A DNA stretch of 26,785 nt from a virus. Positions 2,260 to 12,784 of this stretch are shown piece by piece. The translations under genes were made by a program, and so were the position numbers. Numbering within the stretch: the first letter of the stretch is position 1; every line of letters begins with the position of its first letter. Under the pieces are notes generated by a model. It was not told the DNA's origin. It did not search any database and saw nothing but the letters and a program-made list of their open reading frames with translations. Where the stretch lies: the IMG/VR virus record IMGVR_UViG_3300015262_000033, positions 1 to 26,785 of that record. One strand, written 5' to 3'.

Positions 2260-2473
2260 GTGGTGGTGCTCCAGTCGTGTTGGAATGGGTTCCCGGTGCC
2301 CTGTATCTCGGCAGTACCGGGGTTTCGCTTCCTCCCGCCTTTGCCGTGTCGGCGAGCCTTGTCGTTGGGGATCAGGGAGCACAGGCAACCGGCTAAAGCT
2401 CGTGCGGATTGCGCCTATGCACGCATCCGCCGGCATGACTCTCCCTTCGCGATCCCTCTCTTGGCGTATTCGG
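2260..2473 (-). promoter_or_regulatory. structured leader RNA candidate between recT and the 177-aa gene
   Basis: This is the only sizeable gap in the otherwise overlapping leftward operon. Read on the minus strand it holds three nested or consecutive stems. A 9-bp hairpin with one bulge lies at 2404-2430 (GCGGATGCG pairing with CGCAATCCGC). A long imperfect stem pairs 2377-2390 with 2288-2301, with two single mismatches and a G-U. Inside it a 6-bp stem pairs 2351-2356 with 2334-2339. The gap ends at the ribosome-binding site for the 177-aa gene. No obvious promoter or terminator T-run is seen. A short frame from an ATG at about 2434 is open but unlike a real protein. Confidence 0.4.
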
Positions 2474-3538
2474 TTATTCGCTGAACTTACCGGCGACGGC
2501 CACGCCCAGGTCGCGCAACGGCTGCTGCTCTTTCTCCGGAAGTGTGCGCACCAGGTCGAGCGCCTCGTCGAGCGCCTGTCTGCTGGCCGCGTTGGCGATG
2601 GCGTCGTGCACTTCCTGCACGGTGAACCGGGGTGCGTCGCCGGCCGGCTCGTCGCCGGTGGGCTGTTCGTCGTGCGTCTCGACGCGGTAGTCGCCGTCGA
2701 TGACCATGGCGTTGTGCTGCGGAACGCCGGCATCCGCCTGCTCGTCAAGGCCGACCGCACGCTGGATCTCGATCGAGACAGGCAGGTATTTGAACAGGCG
2801 GCGGATCACCGTCTTGAGTGCCATTGGCTCGAAGTGGTCGTGCCACGTCGACGTGGGTTCTTTCTTGTTTCGCTCGGCGATGCTCACCGCGGCCTTGAAG
2901 CCCTGGCTCTCATTGCGCACGCGCTCGATGTCGGCGCGGCTCATCACGTCGAACTGCACGCCGCCGTCTTTCAGCTTGGCCACGGCATACACGAAGGTCA
3001 GTTCGCCGCGATCGGCGGCGGTCCAGTTCGGGCGATGCACGATCTTGGAGTCCAGGCCGAGCTCGACCTCGAAGTGATCGGCCGCGTACACGGCGCGCGC
3101 TTCCAGACTCAGGATCTGGCCGGACCGGCGGGCGAGATCGAGCATGCCGCGGTAGCCGAGGATCAGTTGCACTTCGGTGCCGACTACGCCCCACTGGCCG
3201 TTGGCGAGCTTGCCGCGTTTGTCGAATGGGATCAGGTAGGCGTGGCCCAGCGCGCCGCCCGGCTCCAGGCCCAGCGCGGCCAGCTGCATGATTGCGCCGA
3301 GAAAGCTGGTCTGGTCACACTGCGCCAGCTTCGGGTTCTTGCGGATCTCGGTGAGCGCAATGCGCGCCAGCCGGTCGGCGGTCATGTGCTTCGGCAGCGC
3401 CAGCGCCATCTGCTGCTTGATCTTCGGATCGGTCAACAGGTGGGCAAGGGTCTTGTGTTCGGGCTGCTGCGTGGCGACTGCGGTGCCGGCGTTGCCGCTG
3501 CTGCGGTTTTGCATTTCCTGCTTGAGGGTCTGTGCCAT
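2474..3538 (-). CDS. recT: RecT-family single-strand annealing protein
   Basis: A 354-residue RecT/RedB-superfamily annealase. Family hallmarks visible are the KTLAHLLTDPKIKQQMALALPKH N-terminus, CDQTSFLGAIMQLAALGLEPGG near residue 80, AYLIPF, EVQLILGYRGMLDLARRSG near residue 130, and HDHFEPMALKTVIRRLFKYLP near residue 240. E. coli RecT has 269 residues; the extra length here is a roughly 70-residue acidic C-terminal tail. The protein coats and anneals complementary single strands in phage recombination. It is followed by a YqaJ-type exonuclease gene upstream in the operon, the standard exonuclease/annealase pair. The ribosome-binding site CTGGAGCAGCATCAC is nearly the same as that of the next gene. 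Confidence 0.96.
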   Translation of the reverse strand: MAQTLKQEMQNRSSGNAGTAVATQQPEHKTLAHLLTDPKIKQQMALALPKHMTADRLARIALTEIRKNPKLAQCDQTSFLGAIMQLAALGLEPGGALGHAYLIPFDKRGKLANGQWGVVGTEVQLILGYRGMLDLARRSGQILSLEARAVYAADHFEVELGLDSKIVHRPNWTAADRGELTFVYAVAKLKDGGVQFDVMSRADIERVRNESQGFKAAVSIAERNKKEPTSTWHDHFEPMALKTVIRRLFKYLPVSIEIQRAVGLDEQADAGVPQHNAMVIDGDYRVETHDEQPTGDEPAGDAPRFTVQEVHDAIANAASRQALDEALDLVRTLPEKEQQPLRDLGVAVAGKFSE

Positions 3539-11459: not shown

Positions 11460-12784
11460 ACGCCATCGTCCATGCCGAGGGCGCCGTGCTGGGAGCCTGC
11501 CTGTGCAGCGCCGACGCCTACTGGCGCGTGGCTGATCTGCTCACACCGGACGACTTCGCCGGCCCGGGCCACCGCAAGATCTACGCGTTGATCACCCAGC
11601 TGGCCCGCGAGGAATCCCCGTTCGATGCGGTGACCATCGGCGACGCCGCGCCGCAGCTCGGTCAGTTGGCGATCGAACTGGCCAATGCCGAAGGCTGGCG
11701 CACGGCGAACGTCCGCGCCTACGCCGAAATCGTGACCAACGCGGCCGTGGCTCGCCGCGTGAAGCTCGCCGGCCAGGAGATCGCGCGCCTCGAAGGTCCG
11801 GACGTGCTCGGCCAGGCCCAGCAGATCATGGGCGCCTGCCTGCCGCGGCACATCGGCCAGGTGAAGCATATTCGCGAGTTCATCCGCGCCTCGGTGATGG
11901 AACTGCAGCGCCGCGTTGACGCCAAGGGCGAGATGACCGGCATCCCGACGAGCCTGCAGGGGCTCGATGATCTCACCTGCGGCTGGCAAGACGGCGACCT
12001 GATCGTGATCGCCGCACGCCCCTCGGTCGGCAAGACCGCGTTCACCATCCAGGCGCTAACCAACGCCTGCCGGCACGGTAAGCACGCACTGTTCTTCAGT
12101 CTGGAAATGACCGGCGTCAAGATCGCCGACCGCGTGCAGGCCCACGTCGCCCAGGTCAACGCCGCCGGCATGAAGCGCCCGGAGCTGTTCGACAACGCCG
12201 ACTTCGGCGCGCTGTTCAACGCGGCCGCGGAGATCGCCGAGCTGCCGCTGCACATCGACGAGACCCCCGCGCTCACCGTCGAAGCCCTCTGCGCTCGAGC
12301 GCGCCAGCTGCACGCCACCCAGCACGTCGACCTGATCGCCATCGACTACCTCACGCAGATGACCCCGCCATCCGGGAAAAACCTGTCGACCGCCGACGCG
12401 CTGCAGATCATCACCCGCGCACTGAAGTCACTGGCCAAGGAACTGAACGTCCCGGTGATCCTACTGAGCCAGCTCAACCGTGACGGGGAAGGGCACCGCC
12501 CAGGACTCAAGGCGCTGCGCGATTCAGGCGCCATCGAGCAGGACGCGGACGTGGTGATCTTCCTGCACCGGCCAGACACTGAGGACAAAGAACACGTCGT
12601 GCTTATCGTGGAAAAGCAGCGCGACGGCGAGACAGGCGACATCCACCTGCACGCCAACATGCGCCACCAGCGATTCACCGAAACCGACGCACCGGTGCGA
12701 GAGGCGAGTCGCGCCCCGACAAACATGCGCGGCTACGGCCAGCGCGCCCGCAGCGCCGGAGGATGGAATGGCTACAACGAGTGA
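11456..12784 (+). CDS. dnaB: replicative DNA helicase, DnaB family
   Basis: A 442-residue DnaB-type helicase. The N-terminal domain (AEGAVLGACLCSADAYWRVADLLTP pattern) is followed by the RecA-like core. Walker A is ARPSVGKT at residues 187-194, and Walker B is LIAIDYL at 293-299. Motif H4-like LSQLNRDGE and the arginine-finger region ALRDSGAIEQDADVVIFLHR follow. It should be loaded by the upstream initiator and unwind the phage fork, replacing the host helicase. Length fits bacterial DnaB (about 470). The start overlaps the initiator stop (ATGA). Confidence 0.96.
   Translation: MNAIVHAEGAVLGACLCSADAYWRVADLLTPDDFAGPGHRKIYALITQLAREESPFDAVTIGDAAPQLGQLAIELANAEGWRTANVRAYAEIVTNAAVARRVKLAGQEIARLEGPDVLGQAQQIMGACLPRHIGQVKHIREFIRASVMELQRRVDAKGEMTGIPTSLQGLDDLTCGWQDGDLIVIAARPSVGKTAFTIQALTNACRHGKHALFFSLEMTGVKIADRVQAHVAQVNAAGMKRPELFDNADFGALFNAAAEIAELPLHIDETPALTVEALCARARQLHATQHVDLIAIDYLTQMTPPSGKNLSTADALQIITRALKSLAKELNVPVILLSQLNRDGEGHRPGLKALRDSGAIEQDADVVIFLHRPDTEDKEHVVLIVEKQRDGETGDIHLHANMRHQRFTETDAPVREASRAPTNMRGYGQRARSAGGWNGYNE

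Follow-up and report, generated by a model that had tools for sequence, protein, structure and literature searches.

Why does a leftward viral recombination operon, the other genes of which overlap or nearly touch one another, contain a spacer of 214 nucleotides? This question was addressed in the window, i.e. the whole 26,785-base virus record that was analysed, where the minus-strand genes occur in the following order: a YqaJ/RecE-like exonuclease gene, recT (2474-3538; Pfam PF03837, E 9.9e-52; phrog_148), the gap (2260-2473), the gene of a 177-aa protein (1726-2259) and a DnaQ-like exonuclease gene. The 177-aa protein has homologs in related bacterial genomes, and its comparison with Pfam and PHROG gave no match. 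An earlier note had drawn attention to this gap, describing on its transcribed strand a 9-bp bulged hairpin, a long-range imperfect stem and an inner 6-bp stem, followed by a ribosome-binding site. The coordinates proved exact, the gap extending from the recT stop codon (2474-2476) to the ATG at 2259-2257, and so did the description of the other junctions, since yqaJ and recT are separated by only 27 nt and the 177-aa gene overlaps the DnaQ-like gene. The ribosome-binding site corresponds to a Shine-Dalgarno-like GGAG (2269-2272, minus strand), recognised from its sequence and located 9 nt before the ATG.

Eight distinct copies of a conserved element of about 165 nt, which has the orientation of the leftward operon (2292-2456, minus strand), were collected, namely that of the window and seven in IMG/VR contigs, one of which also occurs in a bacterial genome. 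A DNA search of 233 related genomes revealed a G237 region 76% identical to query bases 24-193 (E 5.4e-26), the other matches being short. The conserved core was then used as a pattern to scan IMG/VR, which yielded L037 (identical to the G237 copy), L038 (= L042), L043, L044, L045 and L046 (= L047-L049). The eighth copy, L052, was found by a different pattern, derived from hairpin H3 (see below); it is absent from our covariance model R1, yet scores 182.7 bits with it, while the window copy, which is part of that model, scores 191.5 bits. A final, broader pattern scan gave no additional copy, and public phage and plasmid records contained none. As an indication of host range, a single carrier of the element was met in a sample of several hundred genomes centred on Rhodanobacter fulvus and its order. 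The 17-mer and 19-mer pattern matches in L023-L025, L033, L034, L036, L039-L041 and L053-L063 were attributed to chance, as they have no fold, and so was the partial match of the model to G415 (27.9 bits), the sequence of which looks coding by eye and misses the 5' domain.

The copies share an architecture in which a long-range stem, P1, encloses P2 and P3 and a loop-to-linker pseudoknot (together, the 5' domain), followed by the two hairpins H2 and H3 (all coordinates are on the minus strand). The outer part of P1, P1a, pairs GGGAUC (2451-2456) with GAUCCC (2368-2373); it is 100% paired in the eight copies, through the variants GGGAUC/GAUCCC, GGGAGC/GCUCCC and GGGGCC/GGCCCC. The inner part, P1b (2442-2446 with 2374-2378, so that the 3' strands of P1b and P1a together occupy 2368-2378), is 97.5% paired, with both-sided changes at two pairs (A-U to G-C; A-U to C-G). 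P2 (2429-2434 with 2388-2393; CCGGC/GCCGG) is almost invariant and 97.9% paired, and the P3 hairpin (2406-2428; GCGGAU GCG ... CGC AUCCGC) is 100% paired, with a compensatory G-C to A-U change in L052. H2 (2334-2356) is 100% paired as well, four of its five pairs having both-sided changes (CUCACC/GGUGAG, CUACC/GGUAG), L052 adding new compensatory changes here as it does in P3. H3 (2292-2321; 2313-2321 with 2292-2300) carries the conserved loop GCCGAGAUnnAG and is 88.9% paired in the common alignment, with both-sided changes at three pairs, L038 retaining a re-registered stem. The pseudoknot, between CACAGG of the P3 loop and CCUGUG of the linker (CAUAGG at 2414-2419 in the window, with 2380-2385), was added by inspection to the fold predicted by RNAalifold; 97.9% of its cells are paired. 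A C-G pair is replaced by G-C in L038 and by G-U in L037, and the window and L052 each have a one-sided wobble; as this makes a single both-sided pair (two sequences) and two one-sided wobbles, its support is less firm than that of P1 and H2. The 5' domain also comprises an almost invariant, partly unpaired core (CCGGCGGATGCGTGnAnAGGCGCAATCCGCnnGAGCTTTAGCCGG), in which L052 has one compensated pair change. The three stems of the earlier note are thus all found among the conserved helices, the bulged hairpin as H3, the imperfect stem as P1 and the inner stem within P3/P2, and the compensatory changes it had proposed to look for are present in the helices containing them. The pseudoknot, H2 and the cassette behaviour described below are additions to that note.

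The following lines of evidence bear on the reality of this fold. First, the minimum free energy by itself does not mark the gap as unusual: the 214-nt strand has a folding energy of -72.1 kcal/mol (z = -0.25), 73 of 200 shuffles being equally stable, and separate shuffles gave z = -0.8 for the element alone and z = -2.2 for its 5' domain. Second, RNAalifold applied to seven copies predicted 41 pairs, nine of them showing compensatory changes. Third, in the eight-copy alignment the 46-pair structure has 97.0% standard pairs, both-sided changes at 13 of its 46 pairs, as expected of a structured RNA acting in cis or in trans, and a covariation score of 0.244, and none of 500 shuffles reached the pairing share, the both-sided count or the covariation score. 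Fourth, sliding the partners by one to three columns left at most 43.8% paired and two both-sided pairs, and no set out of 2000 random sets of 46 consensus-complementary column pairs attained either value (maxima, 92.5% and 7). The copies being mutually related, these counts of pair cells do not represent independent events. Fifth, 15 pair cells of the eight-copy table are G-U on the operon strand, hence A-C on the opposite strand, which favours the operon strand as the RNA strand. From these data, we regard the structured RNA family as almost certainly real.

The element, as we show, is an intergenic cassette of phages that otherwise differ. In blastn comparisons, the window and L037, L038 and L044 share only the element (75-81% identity over about 170 bases), the window and L049 share the element (83%) and one 29-base match, and more of the operon is common to the window and L043 and L045. 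Each of the eight copies is in the sense orientation and is flanked on either side by genes of the same direction (the reading frames having been chosen by a simple composition score). RecT is encoded upstream of the window copy, exonuclease VIII-like and phrog_11517 proteins upstream of the L043 and L045 copies (with a phrog_902 lipoprotein downstream), and an RdgC-FtsK-gamma protein upstream of that of L044; a Sak4-like annealing protein is encoded downstream in L052. The neighbours are phrog_204 and DUF2303 in L049, phrog_2600 and a large helicase-like protein (named by eye from its sequence) in L037, and phrog_1672 in L038. Hence, the upstream genes are unrelated between copies, and at least five unrelated genes stand directly downstream (the 177-aa gene, the lipoprotein gene, the Sak4 operon, DUF2303 and phrog_2600). 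Because the neighbours vary but remain early or recombination genes, the element belongs to such regions rather than to one gene. In most copies, it begins about 30 nt or less after the upstream stop codon and is followed by a start codon within about 50 nt.

The borders of the cassette are partly shared too. Directly after the recT stop, its 5' flank CCGAATACGCCAAGAGA (2457-2473, minus strand) has counterparts of the form ACCGAAnGCA...CGAGA in L043, L045, L052 and L038, and a weaker one in L046. On the other side, the boundary or leader sequence CCATTCCAACACG (2276-2288, minus strand) is found at the same position in L052 with a different last base, and CCATCCCAACACG precedes the homolog of the 177-aa gene in L002, L013, L043 and L045. 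Two other features were noticed. Short GCCGGC-N-GCCGGC hairpins, distinct from the element, lie about 20-40 nt before early-gene start codons in L015-L018, L020, L037, L044 and L052. In addition, a tail of about 60 aa at the C-terminus (FTVQEVHDAIANAAS...DLGKVVAGKFSE), encoded by positions 2474-2690 of recT in the window and also present in L013, L043 and L045, is common to RecT-like proteins of phrog_148 and phrog_561 and to a phrog_11517 protein without a RecT match; it looks like a swapped docking module.

As operon relatives, we considered those drawn from RecT homologs in viral contigs and genomes. In Rhodanobacter fulvus (L002/L009), the RecT of which is 85% identical to that of the window, the gap holds different DNA; in G258 (L013), where the downstream protein is 88% identical, a 171-aa gene occupies the gap. 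All that these relatives share with the window gap is a leader near the start codon, and model R1 found the element in none of the nearest RecT-operon loci. The earlier note had named deletion of the arms in homologous gaps as evidence against a function. These relatives do not refute one, as the element is an accessory cassette that is intact in other phages; what their lack of it argues against is that the downstream gene has the element as its intrinsic leader. The 171-aa protein encoded in place of the element in the closest relative (L013, 924-1439; MGLDITAYRK...) has no PHROG match.

The 177-aa gene family has a leader of its own, made up of CCCATYCCAACACG and, after it, a small hairpin the loop of which is CGUAA/CGUAG; this leader was seen in L002 (5166-5222), L013 (1441-1500) and L043/L045, and also in L014 upstream of a homologous gene. 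The stem of this hairpin covaries (GGCCGG/CCGGCC, GCCGA/UCGGC, GCCGC/GCGGC), and the L014 hairpin is related. The leader hairpin is missing from the window (2260-2291), where a deletion between two CGACT repeats, as in L043, would account for its loss.

No Rfam family describes the element. The Rfam scan that the earlier note had suggested (Rfam 15, gathering threshold, on the window, L037, L038, L043 and L044) gave no family matching it, and permissive scans gave only chance-level matches, inconsistent between copies. Among these, Proteo-phage-1 (RF03044) scored 13.7 bits over 2360-2436 (gathering score, 42; E 6.2) and was absent in three other copies; named for proteobacterial phages, this RNA also has the AGCCGGU found in the element, but its pairing partners are not those of the element. 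The sX15 match to L044 has two hairpins in a different arrangement, and an sX15-like match in G258 lies on a contig other than that of the operon. The C4 antisense RNA (RF01695) is, similarly to the element, a phage-encoded structured RNA, but its model gives no match. In L036, the core 17-mer match of which is a chance one, a C4 antisense RNA is accompanied by its a1/b1 target and isrK (11818-12009), an arrangement known from phage immunity. GOLLD/ROOL-type orphan RNAs are linked to phages; they are several hundred nt long, as opposed to about 165 nt here, and the element has no Rfam match. Their structure was recognised by covariation ahead of any function (PMC12286853). We found no paper describing the present RNA, most subscription literature lying outside the search, and its rarity in cultured phages, i.e. 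the lack of a copy in phage and plasmid collections, may explain this lack of description. Structured RNAs of phages and operons being a broad and known kind, we judge the element to be a new RNA family among them.

What could such an RNA do? The earlier note had left three choices, namely cis regulation, a site of processing and a phage-made small RNA; what our data uphold is the general idea of a structured RNA with a function, encoded on the operon strand, rather than any one of the three in particular. As for transcription signals, no sigma-70-like promoter was detected at the element, and no intrinsic terminator (GC hairpin plus T run) was found on the minus strand between 2150 and 2650, which sets the element apart from terminators. 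A strong intrinsic-terminator-like hairpin with a T-run lies on the same strand at 7708-7689, about 5.2 kb upstream and within the leftward cluster, so that the transcript carrying the element may begin downstream of that site. We propose that the element would be transcribed as part of the operon transcript and that its action would be that of an RNA, not one exerted through a single neighbouring gene. The nascent RNA would fold and modify the passing RNA polymerase, which would then read the long early operon without pausing or polarity.

RNA-only antiterminators are established in phage and conjugative-element operons (PMC9378689; PMC11658703). The put RNA of HK022 (about 70 nt, two stem-loops) operates at early promoters or no more than about 270 nt away from them (PMC9378689), while EAR (Bacillus eps operon) and canT (Tn916, a mobile element) are antiterminators of long operons (PMC11658703). 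Like put, the element is a structured RNA of a phage early operon with no obvious adjacent protein partner; like EAR and canT, it is not tied to the product of a neighbouring gene. It does not have the form of put, however, being about 165 nt long, three-domained, pseudoknotted and located mid-operon; EAR and canT come from Gram-positive hosts and have no Rfam-level match to the element. The varied downstream genes are as expected for something that acts on polymerase, and the indifference to neighbours, the sense orientation in long operons and the lack of own signals fit a polymerase-acting RNA, and nearly as well a processed RNA acting in trans. Several observations count against antitermination: put operates near early promoters, whereas the element sits mid-operon, about 5 kb past the nearest strong terminator-like site upstream of it; relatives whose operon is almost the same manage without it; and it resembles no Rfam family. 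The mid-operon place and the lack of obvious downstream terminators in the window also lower this reading, as a search of the operon strand over 2.3 kb downstream of the element gave no terminator-like site (those downstream of it in L037 are weak). By analogy with put, EAR and canT, we tentatively propose antitermination by the nascent RNA as the single most likely mechanism. The whole statement, i.e. a conserved fold in a portable cassette acting within the operon transcript by antitermination, falls somewhat short of an even probability.

It is nearly as likely, if likewise somewhat doubtful, that the early transcript is instead cut to release a stand-alone phage RNA, which would act in trans on a host target (e.g. 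in host takeover or counter-defence). Such an RNA would agree with an accessory element that moves as a unit independent of its neighbour genes and with the near-invariant, partly unpaired core, a sequence constraint beyond structural need, but no promoter or terminator of its own was seen at the element. Less likely is a cis element for mRNA processing or stability, balancing the upstream recombination genes against the downstream genes: the stable structure does sit at a cistron boundary, close behind the upstream stop codon in most copies, yet the upstream genes are unrelated, and the tight sequence conservation and the pseudoknot exceed the needs of a simple 3' block. A translational leader or riboswitch for the directly downstream gene is improbable. 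The closeness of a start codon in most copies would suit it, but the element is not confined to one kind of downstream gene, the diversity of which already weakens this reading; the 177-aa family genes of L002 and L013 have their own, different leader hairpin and no element; and the ribosome-binding site lies outside the conserved helices.

We reject the view that the locus encodes a short conserved peptide (MPADACTGAIRTSFSR...) with an incidental structure, which is very improbable. The core is conserved and five of the eight copies have an AUG behind a GGGAG-like site, but AUA replaces it in the other three (L046, L037 and L038), six of the nine core codons that vary alter the amino acid, the copies diverge past the core in where the frame ends or shifts, and the changes preserve base pairs, so that a conserved start, a conserved frame and a synonymous bias are all lacking. 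A chance structure in a GC-rich spacer, to which the ordinary energy of the whole gap might have pointed, is refuted by the covariation and the cross-phage conservation and is scarcely credible.

Leaving the choice of mechanism aside, we consider it rather probable that the element represents an undescribed pseudoknotted RNA family, carried as a cassette in the recombination or early operons of Lysobacterales-type phages and effective through RNA alone, whether by a new form of RNA-only antitermination or in trans, in host takeover or counter-defence. To our knowledge, few phage-encoded structured RNAs have been described. The strong covariation, the defined pseudoknotted fold, the portability of the cassette and its consistent place in early or recombination regions make the function of this one directly testable. 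If it is a true RNA-only antiterminator, it would bring the put/EAR/canT concept to a further group of phages; should it prove to act in trans, it would be a phage effector that consists of RNA.
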